From the IMG/VR virus record IMGVR_UViG_3300022751_000098, positions 1-24,846 of that record: a stretch of DNA of 24,846 nt. The stretch is one strand, 5' to 3'. Below the pieces are notes generated by a model. That model did not search any database. It was not told where the DNA came from and saw only the letters and a program-made list of their open reading frames with translations. Origin of the DNA: a virus. The translations under genes and the position numbers were made by a program. This document shows positions 1,059 through 10,542 of the stretch, in pieces. Numbering within the stretch: position 1 is the first letter of the stretch; each line of letters starts with the position of its first letter.

Positions 1059-1272
1059 CAGACTAACCGAGAAAGACAAGCAAGAAATCCGTGAGCTATA
1101 CGCCATTGACCGAGTGAAGTTCACCAAGTACAAGCTCGCCCTTATGTATGGGGTAGTATGGGCGACAGTCCACTACGTCATCAATGAACCAGCACGACTG
1201 AAGAATCTTGAGCTAACTAAGCAGCGCAACCAGCGGAAGAGGGAGCAGGTGGATGGCAATACCGAAGTATAA
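1045..1272 (+). CDS. Small HTH DNA-binding protein, 75 aa
   Basis: A basic 75-residue protein with a likely helix-turn-helix of the resolvase/homeodomain type: DKQEIRELYAIDRV forms a first helix, then KLALMYGV and WATVHYVINEP fit helix 2, turn and recognition helix at about residues 29-48. The C-terminal tail is very basic (KQRNQRKREQV). A local regulator or DNA-organising protein is plausible. The target is unknown. It overlaps its upstream neighbour by 14 bases and the AAA+ ATPase gene downstream by 20, so it is translated as part of the operon. Confidence 0.7.
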   Translation: MTKHNRLTEKDKQEIRELYAIDRVKFTKYKLALMYGVVWATVHYVINEPARLKNLELTKQRNQRKREQVDGNTEV

Positions 1273-2716
1273 AGTAGGCGACCAGTTCGTTATCAAGAAT
1301 GACGAAGAGCCTACACACGTATACAACATAACGCTACACACGAAACCATACACGGTTACACGTGCAGGTACTGGTGTTGTCGGTGATGAAATAGACTTCA
1401 TCAATGATGGTGGGGCAAGTCAGGTAATCAGTCCAGTGCAAACGATACCATATATAAATGAAAAGGAGACAGACGAGATGGCAACAGCAAAGATTAAAGT
1501 AGGGGATAAGATTCTTCTTACAGAAAAGCTAGACAAAGACCGCAGCTTTACTACTGAAGGTAAAGAGTACGAAGTAATAAGGCTTGAGAAGCCGAGCGAC
1601 CCTGTTGTCATTGATGACCGTGGTACTGAACGCTTCATGCGCCGAACAGAATGGTTTACCAAAGTACCAACGAAGCGTAAGCCAGCAGTTAAGAAAGCCA
1701 AGGTTGTACTACCCACCACTACCATTGCATCACATGAAGTGATTGGACAAGACGAGAACAAGAAAGTTGTTGAGCTTGCTATTGAACACAACCTCCCCGT
1801 CCTCCTCATTGGTGAGACAGGTACAGGTAAGACATCTATTGTCCGTGAACAATCAATCAAACTTGGCAAGCAACTCACTCGCTTCTCTATTACAGGTGAG
1901 ACAACAGTTGATGAGTTCGTTGGTAAGTATGAGCTTGAGTCTGGTGCAACCGTATGGAAAGACGGAGTACTCCTTGATGCAATGAAGAATGGCAAGTGGC
2001 TAGTAGCTGACGAGATTAACGTGGCACTACCAGAGATTCTCTTTGTGCTTCACTCACTCTTGGACGACGACCACTTCATCACAGTAAGCAATCACCTTGG
2101 TGAGGTAGTCAAACCACACGAAGACTTCCGATTCTTTGCAACGATGAACCCACCTGAAGAGTACGCTGGTACTAAGGAACTTAACAAAGCCTTTCAGTCT
2201 CGCTTCTCTGTTGTGCTACAAGTCAACTACCCTGAGCCAGAGGTTGAGGTTAAGATTCTTGTAGACAAAGCAGGTATCGAACCAGACCACGCAACCAAGA
2301 TGGTTGACGTAGCCAACGCACTACGCAAAGCGAAGAATGAAGATAAGATTTTCTTCACGTGTTCTACTCGTGACCTCCTTCATTGGGCTGACGTAGTAGC
2401 TAAGGGATTGAATCCTAACCGTGCCTTCGAGGTAGCAGTCTTGAACAAGACAGGCGGTGACGCAAAGGTTATCACTGACATCTACCAAGCTATCATCGGT
2501 GACTACATTGCCATTGATACACCGGAAGTAACACTCACTATTGACTGGTTCAAGCAGCGTAAGGTTGAACTCGACAAAGACTTTGCTGACTTTGAAGCAC
2601 GCAAGACTGAGATTCGTGAAGAGATTACAGCTGACATCGTGAAGCAACTGACATCACCTAAAGCAATCGCAGCTGGACAGCCAGAGGAGATTACTGATGG
2701 CATCTTCACCAGTTAA
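1253..2716 (+). CDS. MoxR-type AAA+ ATPase, 487 aa
   Basis: AAA+ ATPase of the MoxR/CobS type. Walker A is GETGTGKT (residues 187-194), Walker B is WLVADEIN (249-256), the sensor-1 Asn is N299 in ATMNPPEEY, and an arginine-finger-like QSRF motif follows. These proteins form hexamers that remodel a partner complex, usually through a VWA-domain protein. Such a protein lies 143 bases downstream, separated by one small gene. The first 130 residues are unusual: two similar segments, each starting K-x-KVGD (residues about 5-50 and 78-125), look like a duplicated small beta domain. An in-frame ATG at residue 76 (position 1478) has its own strong AAAAGGAG site, so a shorter 412-residue form may also be made. 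The substrate in the phage is unknown. Assembly, DNA packaging or host remodelling are all possible. Confidence 0.9.
   Translation: MAIPKYKVGDQFVIKNDEEPTHVYNITLHTKPYTVTRAGTGVVGDEIDFINDGGASQVISPVQTIPYINEKETDEMATAKIKVGDKILLTEKLDKDRSFTTEGKEYEVIRLEKPSDPVVIDDRGTERFMRRTEWFTKVPTKRKPAVKKAKVVLPTTTIASHEVIGQDENKKVVELAIEHNLPVLLIGETGTGKTSIVREQSIKLGKQLTRFSITGETTVDEFVGKYELESGATVWKDGVLLDAMKNGKWLVADEINVALPEILFVLHSLLDDDHFITVSNHLGEVVKPHEDFRFFATMNPPEEYAGTKELNKAFQSRFSVVLQVNYPEPEVEVKILVDKAGIEPDHATKMVDVANALRKAKNEDKIFFTCSTRDLLHWADVVAKGLNPNRAFEVAVLNKTGGDAKVITDIYQAIIGDYIAIDTPEVTLTIDWFKQRKVELDKDFADFEARKTEIREEITADIVKQLTSPKAIAAGQPEEITDGIFTS
1461..1480 (+). promoter_or_regulatory. Internal ribosome-binding site and alternative start in the MoxR ATPase gene
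   Basis: AAAAGGAG at 1461-1468 lies 9 bases before an in-frame ATG at 1478, codon 76 of the ATPase gene. The second KVGD segment begins just after it. The spacing is normal for an initiation site, so a form lacking the first KVGD segment may be translated. It could also be a relic of the fusion of two once-separate genes. Confidence 0.5.
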
Positions 2717-2870
2717 TGTTGAACTCAAGGAGTTACTCGAAGACATTCGTAAGTTTGGCGTGGACTCTATATCAAACATCAAAGATGACGCTGTTCTCGG
2801 TAAGGACTACGCACTCTTCGACATAGTACTGGACATAATAGATAGCATTGAGGACAAGTATGGAAACTAA
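2697..2870 (+). CDS. Small hypothetical protein between ATPase and VWA genes, 57 aa
   Basis: The ATG at 2697 has a GAGGAG site 7-8 bases upstream and overlaps the end of the ATPase gene by 20 bases. The TAA at 2868-2870 overlaps the start of the VWA gene. The product is acidic and mostly helical (VELKELLEDIRKFGV, then FDIVLDIIDSIEDKYGN). No family is recognised. Its place inside the ATPase/VWA pair suggests an accessory or adaptor subunit of that machine, but only position supports this. Confidence 0.7.
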   Translation: MASSPVNVELKELLEDIRKFGVDSISNIKDDAVLGKDYALFDIVLDIIDSIEDKYGN

Positions 2871-3987
2871 ACTACAAGAAGGCGCGAAGCAGATTCTCGT
2901 ACAGCTGGAAGATGGCAGTACTTGGAAAGCAGAGCAACGGATTGATGGGCTGTACTTAGTTGAGCAGCTCAGTGACCCGAACAAAAGCACAGCGGAATCA
3001 GAGGGCGCACCTGAGCCGGGTGATATGGTTGAGGGTACTGAACCAGAATCAGAAGGTGAAGAGGGTGAGCCGTCACCTGAAGAGGTCGAGGAAGTATACG
3101 AGAAGATGTTCCGAGGCGGTGGCAAGGGAGCATCTGACTATGAGAAGTTCTTTAAGGAACTCAAGGATGCACGTGGTATCCCTGAGGAAATCAAAGAGAA
3201 GATTAAAGACCCAGCCTTCCGTGCTCGTCTCTCATCTATCATGCTCGACAATAAGTATGACCGTCGTCTTCGTGGTAGGACACGTGGCAAGCTAGACATG
3301 GGTCGTCTTCCAAAGGTACCGATGATGGCACGTAACGTGTTCATGCGTAAGCAATCACGAAAGGGTAAGGCATACAACGTAGTCCTGTTAGTAGACGAAA
3401 GCGGAAGTATGAGTGAAGATAAGGGATGGGCTGCTGCTGAAGCAACTATCTTCCTACTGTCACAGCTGGATGGGCTGAACATTAACACAGCTGTCATTGG
3501 ATTCAATCAGATGATTGCAGTGCATAAGCCTTGGACTGGCACCTCTGACTATGAAGCTATCTATGAAGCTATCGGTCAGCAAGGACACGTTGAACCTTAC
3601 CATGAGGTCAGCGACTCAGGTTATAACTGTGACTACGATGCGATGCACTTTGCATATGAGTACTTCAACAAGTCACCAGACGAAGGAGAGAACATCCTCA
3701 TCATGTTGAGTGATGGAGCACCTGCTCACCGTGATGATGCGGTACGTGTTGTTGACCACAAGGGTAAACCTATTAAAGGATTCAAACCACATAAACTTGA
3801 CTATCGTTTAAAGAGAGAGCGAGAACACCTGAATAAGTTAGCTACCTCTTACAAGGATGTACACTCAGTTGGTATTGGTATCTTTGAAGGTGGTTGGCAG
3901 ATACCTGAGCACTTCATCATCCACTCACTGGATGACCTGAAGCCTACTATCATTAAGACCTTGGGCAAGAAGATTAAGCGAGGCTAA
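2860..3987 (+). CDS. VWA-domain (CobT-like) protein, partner of the AAA+ ATPase, 375 aa
   Basis: A von Willebrand factor A domain occupies about residues 170-365. The metal-ion (MIDAS) site is visible as D-E-S-G-S (D179, S181, S183), with a later Asp in LSDGAP (D285). Ahead of it lie an acidic segment (residues 50-85, rich in Glu, Pro and Ser) and a basic region (KYDRRLRGRTRGKLD), an arrangement like CobT-type proteins. In MoxR/VWA systems the VWA protein links the ATPase to its target. I chose the ATG at 2860, with GAGG 6 bases upstream, over a TTG at 2848. The family call is firm, but the role in the phage is unknown. Confidence 0.88.
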   Translation: METKLQEGAKQILVQLEDGSTWKAEQRIDGLYLVEQLSDPNKSTAESEGAPEPGDMVEGTEPESEGEEGEPSPEEVEEVYEKMFRGGGKGASDYEKFFKELKDARGIPEEIKEKIKDPAFRARLSSIMLDNKYDRRLRGRTRGKLDMGRLPKVPMMARNVFMRKQSRKGKAYNVVLLVDESGSMSEDKGWAAAEATIFLLSQLDGLNINTAVIGFNQMIAVHKPWTGTSDYEAIYEAIGQQGHVEPYHEVSDSGYNCDYDAMHFAYEYFNKSPDEGENILIMLSDGAPAHRDDAVRVVDHKGKPIKGFKPHKLDYRLKREREHLNKLATSYKDVHSVGIGIFEGGWQIPEHFIIHSLDDLKPTIIKTLGKKIKRG

Positions 3988-6062: not shown

Positions 6063-6338
6063 ATGGCAGATTTGTGGCAAAGAACTAAACAAGCGTGGAA
6101 GAAGTTGAACCCACCAGACAAGGATGGGTACTACGAGTGTGCGATATGCCACACCAAGGTACACATTAGCAAGGTGAGCATCGACCACATCATACCGTGG
6201 TCACTCTACCCTCAGCTGAGGTACGACCTCACTAACCTACAGCCAGCCCATACCTTTTGTAATCAAGAGAAGGGCAATGGTAAGGAGACAACTAGGTTAG
6301 TACAGAGGTACGGCAAGAGCAGGAAAAGAATCTGGTAA
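6063..6338 (+). CDS. HNH endonuclease, 91 aa
   Basis: A small HNH-family nuclease. The zinc knuckle is C26-x2-C29 with H63-x2-C66. The catalytic beta-beta-alpha core is ID-H42-IIPWS ... LTN58LQPAHTFCN67QEKGN, where the last position is Asn, as in many HNH/HNN variants. It follows the helicase by two bases. Phage HNH enzymes of this size serve as packaging-associated nickases, homing enzymes or nucleases acting on host DNA. Its place in the replication genes, away from any terminase, favours a role in DNA metabolism, but this is inference. Confidence 0.9.
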   Translation: MADLWQRTKQAWKKLNPPDKDGYYECAICHTKVHISKVSIDHIIPWSLYPQLRYDLTNLQPAHTFCNQEKGNGKETTRLVQRYGKSRKRIW

Positions 6339-8684: not shown

Positions 8685-9172
8685 TGTCACAGTTTTATAA
8701 CATCACACAGTACCAAGCAGGTAAGCCGTGGAAGTCACCATACGGTATGCTTGACTCATTCTTCCTAGACATTGAAGGGTTCGACGGTGCTACCATCATG
8801 ACCAACAAGAAGGAAGGTAACACTCCGAAGCTTGGTCAAGTGTACGGTGAACTCATCTTCAAGAAGAAGGGCGCTAAAGGGCAGGATGTATACCAGTTCA
8901 AGCAACTCGAACAACCTGAAGGCGTTGATGCACCAGCTACGTCAGCCCCTGTCGCACAACCAACACAGACGGCAACAGGTATGCCTGAGTGGTTCGCACC
9001 TTACGCAGTTATGATTAAGAACATCCACGACGACATCGCTACGCCAATGATTACTATTGGAAATCCTGCTGAACCTGATGCTGTCGAGGAAATTGAATCA
9101 CCGAAACTTAGCAAGTCGGAACTAGAGGACATCTTCGGAGGCTCAATGGAACCGATTGAACTGGTTGACTAA
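8684..9172 (+). CDS. Possible ssDNA-binding (OB-fold-like) protein, 162 aa
   Basis: The first about 85 residues are beta-rich with glycine turns and basic strands (YGMLDSFFLDIEGFDGATIM, GQVYGELIFKKKGAKGQDVYQF), in keeping with an OB fold. A low-complexity Ala/Pro/Gln/Thr linker (about 88-110) and an acidic tail (SELEDIFGGSMEPIELVD) follow, the usual layout of bacterial and phage SSB proteins. Its position near helicase and nuclease genes agrees. No diagnostic motif is seen, so an unrelated small beta protein is not excluded. Confidence 0.45.
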   Translation: MSQFYNITQYQAGKPWKSPYGMLDSFFLDIEGFDGATIMTNKKEGNTPKLGQVYGELIFKKKGAKGQDVYQFKQLEQPEGVDAPATSAPVAQPTQTATGMPEWFAPYAVMIKNIHDDIATPMITIGNPAEPDAVEEIESPKLSKSELEDIFGGSMEPIELVD

Positions 9173-9579
9173 TGAAACTACAGGAGGTACTGAACAAGCT
9201 AGAGAAGATGAACGTGCTGTATATCAACGACCGTATATGGGAAGACCCATCACGACTACCTGATTTCATGGCAGAGTTCGCAGCATACGGAGCTATACTC
9301 ATATCGAACTACGGCGACTTCATGGAACTGTATCGACAGAAGGTAGCAAAGATACTGACAGAAGAACAGGATGCAGCAACCCTCTTTAACGAGAATCTTG
9401 AGAAGCCGAGCGACAAGCGTTCACAAACAGAAGTAGAACGACGAGTGAGTATTCGTATCAGTAACCTCAAGGGTATGCGTGAGAAGTTTGAAGCAAAGGT
9501 GGAAGCAAGTAAGCTCTTGGTATCGACAATGCAAAGCAAGCGTCGTGCCATGAGTGACGAAGCAAAGAACTTACTTTAA
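9172..9579 (+). CDS. Hypothetical coiled-coil protein, 135 aa
   Basis: It starts with a TAATG overlap and has an internal Glu/Lys-rich helical character throughout. The second half (SQTEVERRVSIRISNLKGMREKFEAKVEASKLLVSTMQSKRR) recalls small phage proteins encoded beside SSB or recombination genes, in which a long helix ends in a basic stretch. No named family can be given. It is the last gene before the structured intergenic RNA region, and its TAA lies seven bases before that RNA's outer stem. Confidence 0.75.
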   Translation: MKLQEVLNKLEKMNVLYINDRIWEDPSRLPDFMAEFAAYGAILISNYGDFMELYRQKVAKILTEEQDAATLFNENLEKPSDKRSQTEVERRVSIRISNLKGMREKFEAKVEASKLLVSTMQSKRRAMSDEAKNLL

Positions 9580-9585
9580 TAAATC

Positions 9586-9750
9586 GTTGAGCGTAGTAGT
9601 GCTGGTAGTGAAGCAGGTTATGGTTGAAGTAGTATACATATTTTAACCCTGTGGCAGCGAGATACAGTACCCATACCTTACGAAAGTATGGGAAAGCCGA
9701 GACTAGAAGTTAAGTGAAAGGCTCATCGCTACTAGCACCATACGCTTAAC
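9586..9750 (+). ncRNA. Candidate structured RNA whose 5' and 3' ends pair
   Basis: The 200-base gap between genes folds strongly on paper. Outer stem: 9586-9595 pairs with 9741-9750 (10 bp, one G-U). After a small internal loop, 9599-9610 pairs with 9727-9738 (12 bp, two G-U). Inside lie hairpin A (9622-9631 with 9639-9648, 10 bp, 7-base loop, extended by CAG/CUG at 9614-9616 and 9649-9651) and hairpin B (CCCATAC 9670-9676 with GTATGGG 9686-9692). GGC 9653-9655 can pair with GCC 9696-9698, closing B. A TTTAAT at 9575-9580 could be a -10 box placing a start near 9586, but no good -35 is seen. I recognise no known RNA family. It could be a free RNA, a leader controlling the HTH gene downstream, or a processed operon element. 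Confidence 0.6.
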
Positions 9751-9752
9751 AG

Positions 9753-9782
9753 TATGAATAGTCATAAGGAGAAAATGTAATG
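9753..9782 (+). promoter_or_regulatory. Hairpin and start-stop element at the ribosome site of the HTH gene
   Basis: TATGA-ATAG-TCATA (9753-9766) forms a small hairpin touching the Shine-Dalgarno AAGGAG (9766-9771). The start region reads ATGTAATG: an ATG-TAA minimal frame at 9775-9780 overlaps the real ATG at 9780. Together with the structured RNA just upstream, this suggests translational control, but no function can be read directly. Confidence 0.4.
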
Positions 9783-10160
9783 ACAAAGTACAAATCACTG
9801 AACAAGAAAGAATACGTACAAATCAAAGCACTGCTCGATGCAGGTGTACCAGTTGGTGTGTTAGGTAAGATGATGGAACGCTCACAAGCTACCATCTCAA
9901 ACATTAAACGCTCAAAGGACTTTGATGACTACCACGTTATTATCCGTAGTTACTACGCACCAAAGCCAAAGTCTGTTGTCATCGAAGAAGCAAAGATTGA
10001 ACAGCACATCGACGAAGTAAACGAGACTGAGCCTACTCACCTTCCAAAGGTACAGGCACATGACGGTACTGAAGCGACAAGCCTTCTCCGTATTGCTAAC
10101 GCACTCGAACGAATGGCTGACGCATGGGAATCAAAGCCAAAGGGAATCTTTAACCGATAG
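9780..10160 (+). CDS. HTH DNA-binding protein, 126 aa
   Basis: The N-terminal 45 residues look like a helix-turn-helix: YVQIKALLDAGVPVGVLGKMMERSQATISNIKRS, with the recognition helix at about SQATISNIKRS. A linker follows, then a C-terminal amphipathic helix (ATSLLRIANALERMADAWES) that could dimerise. It probably binds DNA as a regulator. The gene follows the structured RNA with its own AAGGAG site 8 bases from the ATG, so the RNA may govern its expression. Targets are unknown. The palindromes in this window's promoters are candidates. Confidence 0.75.
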   Translation: MTKYKSLNKKEYVQIKALLDAGVPVGVLGKMMERSQATISNIKRSKDFDDYHVIIRSYYAPKPKSVVIEEAKIEQHIDEVNETEPTHLPKVQAHDGTEATSLLRIANALERMADAWESKPKGIFNR

Positions 10161-10168
10161 GAGTTACT

Positions 10169-10405
10169 ATGAAAGCAATTTACACACAAGAAGATTTTGT
10201 ACGTGCCTATATTACCTCATTCAAAAATGGTATTTCTTTTCAAGACCTATGCGAAAAGATACAGACATCACCATCAGCTGTCTTACAAAGGGCTAACAGG
10301 TTACGCATGAAGGGAGTAAAACTTCCACGATTAGTAGGTGAGGGGCTGAGTGACAACATACGCAGTGCAGAAGAACTCAACAAATTGATTGAAGACCTGT
10401 CGTAA
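10169..10405 (+). CDS. Small HTH protein, 78 aa
   Basis: The segment GISFQDLCEKIQTSPSAVLQRANRLRMKGVKLP (about residues 21-53) has the spacing and residue types of a helix-turn-helix, with SAVLQRANRLR as recognition helix and the winged-type sequence GVKLP after it. TAGGAG, at the end of the preceding gene, serves as ribosome site. It may act with the HTH protein just upstream. The targets are unknown. Confidence 0.72.
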   Translation: MKAIYTQEDFVRAYITSFKNGISFQDLCEKIQTSPSAVLQRANRLRMKGVKLPRLVGEGLSDNIRSAEELNKLIEDLS

Positions 10406-10542
10406 TGGCAGCACTCAACGCAGTCGTAGCGGTACTGGTATTTCTTCTACTCGTTGGAGTAGTAGTAGTATCATGGTTCCGCTATCAAGAAATGAAGCAA
10501 ATGAAACTAACTAAGAAGGGGAAACGAAATGTACGAAAATAA
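10405..10542 (+). CDS. Small single-pass membrane protein, 45 aa
   Basis: The ATG overlaps the previous stop (TAATG), and the 45-residue product has one clear membrane helix (residues about 5-24, VVAVLVFLLLVGVVVVSWF) followed by a basic tail (KQMKLTKKGKRNVRK) that would lie in the cytoplasm. It overlaps the SPFH gene by 14 bases. The pairing of a tiny membrane protein with an SPFH protein suggests they act together at the membrane. Confidence 0.7.
   Translation: MAALNAVVAVLVFLLLVGVVVVSWFRYQEMKQMKLTKKGKRNVRK

Follow-up and report, generated by a model that had tools for sequence, protein, structure and literature searches.

The record analyzed, IMGVR_UViG_3300022751_000098, is a linear fragment of 24,846 bases from an uncultured phage, and this whole stretch is referred to below as the window. 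According to the list of open reading frames (ORFs), genes lie on the + strand from position 1 to approximately 12,790 and on the - strand from 13,147 onward. The + block encodes a MoxR/CobS-like AAA ATPase, a CobT-like VWA protein, a DnaB-type helicase, an HNH protein, a Cas4-like nuclease, small genes without a family, two helix-turn-helix (HTH) proteins, and an SPFH protein. These are collinear, operon-like early genes, and many neighbors overlap. The - block encodes a holin, a LysM protein, and tail/structural proteins, and one protein of this block matches a protein labelled "phage stabilization protein" in a relative, MW202497. The ATPase and VWA genes of this compact phage follow one another at 1253-3987; the same type of pair occurs in Gordonia phage GMA6, and the CobS-like part occurs in cyanophages. 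A small HNH protein is encoded at 6063-6338 beside the DnaB-like gene, and its nearest models are PtuB and retron-type HNH. An HNH gene likewise adjoins the helicase gene in L006, the locus from MW202497.

The largest gap in the + block is 200 nt (9580-9779), and 165 nt of it are filled by a predicted structured element that begins 6 nt past the upstream stop codon and finishes 29 nt ahead of the next start. The next gaps of the block measure 145, 143, 135, 123, and 98 nt; all others are 8 nt or less, or are overlaps. The product of the upstream gene had no Pfam match above cut-off and no notable PHROGs match. The downstream product matched HTH_38 with an E value of 1e-4, which is under the curated cut-off. 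The features of the locus are listed here with their basis in parentheses.

9172 to 9579, + strand: upstream gene, 135 aa (ORF).
9586 to 9750, + strand: whole structured element, 165 nt, in which helices P1 and P2 close three arms (MFE, shuffles, pair probability).
9586 to 9595, + strand: P1 5' strand, GUUGAGCGUA (fold).
9599 to 9611, + strand: P2 5' strand, GUGCUGGUAGUGA (fold).
9613 to 9658, + strand: arm A, with a 10-bp stem 9622-9631/9639-9648 and loop GUAUACA (fold).
9659 to 9669, + strand: unpaired linker, GAGAUACAGUA (fold).
9670 to 9692, + strand: arm B, with a 7-bp stem CCCAUAC/GUAUGGG and a 9-nt loop (fold).
9695 to 9723, + strand: arm C, the weakest arm, with 4 bp, a purine internal loop GAG/GAAA, and 3 bp (fold).
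9726 to 9738, + strand: P2 3' strand, UCGCUACUAGCAC (fold).
9741 to 9750, + strand: P1 3' strand, UACGCUUAAC (fold).
9766 to 9771, + strand: Shine-Dalgarno-like AAGGAG, 8 nt upstream of the ATG at 9780 and outside the fold (sequence).
9780 to 10160, + strand: downstream gene, 126 aa, with an N-terminal helix-turn-helix (ORF; Pfam HTH_38).

An earlier note on this DNA, made from the sequence, had described a 165-base element with paired ends at 9586-9750, and both its coordinates and its architecture were borne out by the fold and the shuffles. In the predicted fold, P1 has 10 bp (9586-9595/9741-9750) and is followed by an internal loop of 3/2 nt (9596-9598/9739-9740) and then by P2 (9599-9611/9726-9738). 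The note was correct about the 10-bp helix and the small internal loop; the second helix, given there as 12 bp, is 13 bp. At least two hairpins, one of 10 bp, had also been counted, which agrees with the three arms found and with the 10-bp stem of arm A. The basal extension of arm A is predicted to be weaker (5 bp and 2 bp). The stem of arm B pairs 9670-9676 with 9686-9692, and arm C pairs 9695-9698 with 9720-9723 (4 bp) and 9702-9704 with 9713-9715 (3 bp). The base of arm A and arm C are less certain, being altered in suboptimal folds within approximately 1.5 kcal/mol. Letters resembling a group I intron core (GAGACUA ... AUAGUC) were considered and dropped, having no Rfam support at E<=10 and implying disruption of the 23-bp closing helix.

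The MFE of the element on the + strand was -63.8 kcal/mol, with a z-score of -6.35 against 200 shuffles and -6.69 against 3,000 dinucleotide shuffles, none of which (0/3,000) was as stable; the best shuffle reached -53.8. P1 and P2 had a pair probability of 0.99 in 301 nt of native context. The element was the best GC-corrected fold out of 1,238 scanning windows on both strands, and its local-fold z of -6.85 was the lowest listed for the window, the next listed being -5.3. The pairs joining the two ends numbered 23, compared to a maximum of 22 among the 3,000 dinucleotide shuffles, although such closed ends are partly an outcome of how local folds are delimited.

The reverse complement (- strand) had an MFE of -48.2 kcal/mol, well short of the + strand value. 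The + fold holds 8 G-U pairs, three of which are the only non-Watson-Crick positions in P1 and P2, and the - strand folds less well because of these pairs. The strand difference and the positions of the G-U pairs favor an RNA read in the direction of the genes over a DNA-level palindrome, an argument of only moderate force since the + fold was the one selected. A DNA-level feature would be a MITE-like inverted-repeat element, or a cruciform or replication site, with the RNA fold as a by-product. The two ends do form long inverted repeats, and near-perfect inverted repeats folding on both strands are present in some other phage loci. However, the record holds no second copy of the element, no target-site duplication was found around it, and it is the + strand that folds clearly better; we therefore consider this explanation improbable. 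One of those other loci, L035:2229-2351 in the record of a relative (G010), has a near-perfect 20-bp inverted repeat around approximately 80 nt and folds well on both strands (z -7.7; extended, -6.5). It looks DNA-level, unlike 9586-9750.

For calibration, the same local-fold z-score was computed over other phage loci amounting to 2.07 Mb, strand-counted. Values of -6.8 or lower occurred at 39 distinct strand-loci, or approximately 1 per 53 kb of strand, the majority with one or two hairpins. At z <= -6 there were 36 strand-loci that had at least 3 hairpins and were 120 nt or longer; some of them overlap or mirror each other. The calibration loci that were read out had no visible sequence likeness among them. 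The element is far beyond shuffled sequence, yet folds of its strength are no rarity in phage genomes. The fold could have arisen by chance in a non-coding spacer, with no selected function, which would be in keeping with these frequencies and with the singleton status of the element. Set against this are the shuffles, none of which matched it, its rank as best of all windows, and its occupation of the widest intergenic space in a compact block of genes, and we regard a fortuitous origin as highly improbable. Overall, we put the probability that 9586-9750 is a functional + strand RNA structure at roughly 80%.

Two other folded loci were seen in the same material. L006:3057-3184 (MW202497) folds into a closed structure with several arms on either strand (z -6.5 and -6.8), overlies a short annotated ORF, and includes a terminator-like hairpin. 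L066:82-243 is an array of AAACTACATACCAGTTT-like repeats whose folding is extremely strong (z -9.2); it may be a tandem array of operators or replication sites.

Relatives of the phage were sought with the tail-stabilization protein, which gave loci L004-L018. Structural-gene identity was 56-59% in L004, L005, L007, and L008 and approximately 40% in L006 and L009-L012. The early block was absent from the structural-gene relatives, where only DnaB matched (26-28%, in L006 and L028). Searches by blastn with the element gave nothing credible, either in the relatives' loci and 14 full viral records or in 50,697 phage and 72,556 plasmid records. A covariance model built from the single sequence of the element, R1, was run over approximately 1.45 Mb of loci, some overlapping, and at E below 2 it recovered only the element itself. 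A gapped DNA pattern of the unpaired linker and arm C had six matches in all viral contigs, none of which folds alike or matches R1. No true relative came out of scanning viral contigs with peptide patterns from the HTH, DnaB-like, MoxR-like, and HNH proteins; two matches were rejected, as only 16-23 residues aligned and no other gene was in common. A DnaB profile scan reached at least 80 distant loci, and among the matches listed none had the direct flanking genes of the element or its RNA. That these searches found no homologue argues only weakly against the existence of any, because a single-sequence model such as R1 would miss distant relatives; pattern scans with single proteins pick up close relatives only, which weakens the result further.

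Elsewhere in the window, R1 matched just once (E 4.3), at a second strong hairpin at 10424-10488 on the + strand (MFE -26.6, z -5.66). It lies within a small membrane-like ORF of 44-45 aa at approximately 10404-10539, directly 3' of the second HTH gene. The Leu/Phe and Val codons of this ORF may explain the self-complementarity of the hairpin.

Between 9300 and 10200, neither a consensus sigma-70 promoter nor an intrinsic terminator was found, which fits co-transcription, with the element inside a longer transcript. The collinear, mostly overlapping gene block and the short distances from the ends of the element to the flanking genes likewise fit an intercistronic mRNA element better than a separate gene. 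The element is probably a genuine RNA structure, acting in cis on the transcript of the early genes. As to its role, we tentatively favor, at somewhat below even odds, an element that works mainly in RNase III-type processing or insulation between the replication and HTH genes. From the computed fold, strand preference, and gap-filling position we infer a possible course of transcription, cutting, and effects on the neighboring genes. The element would belong to a longer early (replication-region) transcript that reads through it. Its long closing helix (10+13 bp) would be cut by the RNase III of the host or by a comparable enzyme; alternatively, the fold would block exonucleases and ribosome read-through. 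The mRNA of the replication genes upstream and that of the HTH genes downstream would thereby be uncoupled, each with separate stability and expression.

The position directly upstream of the HTH gene (9780-10160) allows another scenario, a regulatory leader in which a ligand, a protein (perhaps the HTH protein), or a ribosome alters the fold. The sequence GUUAAGUG (9709-9716) copies the motif of the 5' strand of P1, and pairing between it and CGCUUAAC (9743-9750) in the P1 3' strand is conceivable. In addition, CCUUA (9676-9680), at the loop of arm B, complements UAAGG (9765-9769, Shine-Dalgarno region), a possible pseudoknot that may be due to chance. Such short complementarities would supply a leader with alternative pairings, but they were noted post hoc and their length is reachable by chance. 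A ribosome at the upstream stop codon would overlap P1; however, when the P1 5' strand was blocked in the prediction, as by such a ribosome, P2 and the arms were unchanged and no alternative fold was predicted, which speaks against an attenuator-like switch. The predicted accessibility of the Shine-Dalgarno sequence was equal with or without the element, which speaks against simple translational occlusion. A leader function is, therefore, rather unlikely.

The earlier note had pointed to self-contained RNAs such as 6S, pRNA, or large riboregulators, and a free-standing, stable, trans-acting phage ncRNA of 165 nt, excised from the early transcript or transcribed separately from a non-consensus promoter, has to be weighed. 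The closed ends and compact multi-arm fold would suit such a molecule. The AT-rich TTTAAT at 9575-9580 would set a start near 9586, and the palindrome GUAUAC in the arm A loop could, judging from its sequence, permit loop-loop dimers. No known family was recognized, however. Rfam 15 (4,227 families) gave no match at gathering score in the whole window, and at E<=10 over 9400-9900 the only match was sR30, which lay outside the element and scored 10 bits versus a cut-off of 38. ARAGORN found 0 tRNA/tmRNA genes in the whole window. Protein partners of known self-contained RNAs were also lacking from the record: TROVE (PF05731) had no match in what is a fragment, so that a partner elsewhere is possible (the control was positive in Deinobacterium), and reverse transcriptase (PF00078) had no match in the record (the control was positive in 3 genomes). 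With the promoter, terminator, and homologue searches also negative, a free-standing RNA appears unlikely. It is quite unlikely that the element represents an undescribed class of self-contained phage RNA from the early transcript, acting in trans during infection as a folded RNP scaffold or riboregulator.

What holds of the earlier interpretation is a structured, non-coding RNA of the coding strand that is outside Rfam; the self-contained form is unsupported, and the likeness to 6S and pRNA finds no support either, given the missing Rfam match, the lack of a consensus promoter or terminator around the element, and the intercistronic position. Its statements that no coding frame fits and that no known RNA family matches were both upheld, the former by the six frames of the gap at 9580-9779, which contain stops or have no start giving an ORF of 50 aa.

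If functional, the element would be an RNA element outside every current RNA family, from a group of phages for which experimental data are very scarce. Should it prove to be no more than an intercistronic processing site, it would be a fresh example of a known practice. In our survey, metagenomic phages fairly often had orphan elements with several arms and a strong fold, and this frequency suggests that a systematic comparison could reward more than this single case. As it stands, the element is one orphan fold among many.

Several known systems have features in common with the element. Retron ncRNAs (msr-msd) have paired ends, a1/a2, that close around hairpins. Hairpins are enclosed by paired ends here as well, and the difference is the reverse transcriptase, which the record does not contain. 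The pRNA of phi29 is phage-borne, with its 5' and 3' ends paired and a multi-way junction; the element has all three features, but it has no Rfam match, lies among early genes, and has no adjacent packaging gene. Y RNA and YrlA have their ends paired in a long stem and carry arms at the far end. The long end-pairing stem and distal arms of the element are similar, whereas the Rfam match and the TROVE protein are missing from this record. Y RNA/YrlA (Ro-bound) has been reported in mycobacteriophages (PMC12282133).

The put elements are cis RNAs of early phage transcripts that act without a dedicated protein, and those of HK022 are approximately 70 nt, with two stem-loops, near an early promoter (PMC9378689). 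Processive antitermination of this kind would have the nascent RNA act on RNA polymerase and allow read-through of the remaining 3 kb. Like put, the element is probably a structured part of the RNA made from early phage genes; its structure is strong, and no trans partner is obvious. In contrast to put, it is 165 nt long, has a closing helix and three arms, and lies deep in the gene block, and so departs from the put type in size, shape, and place (PMC9378689). Additionally, no terminator was found in the stretch scanned downstream, to 10200. We judge antitermination the least probable of the explanations considered.

The closest comparison for the favored reading, RNase III-type processing or insulation, may be with early mRNA processing. 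An RNase III site calls for a helix of approximately two turns in a co-transcribed mRNA; the helix here is 10+13 bp with a probability of 0.99, and co-transcription is suggested by the gene layout. RNase III cuts the early mRNA of T7 between phage genes, at sites that are simple hairpins. Unlike those sites, the closing helix here caps a multi-branched domain, 165 nt long and with three arms, and the suggestion of cutting comes from helix length alone. Like T7-type sites, the element is a long imperfect double helix on the coding strand between collinear early genes, and its 23-bp helix with a small internal loop would resemble a general RNase III substrate between phage genes.
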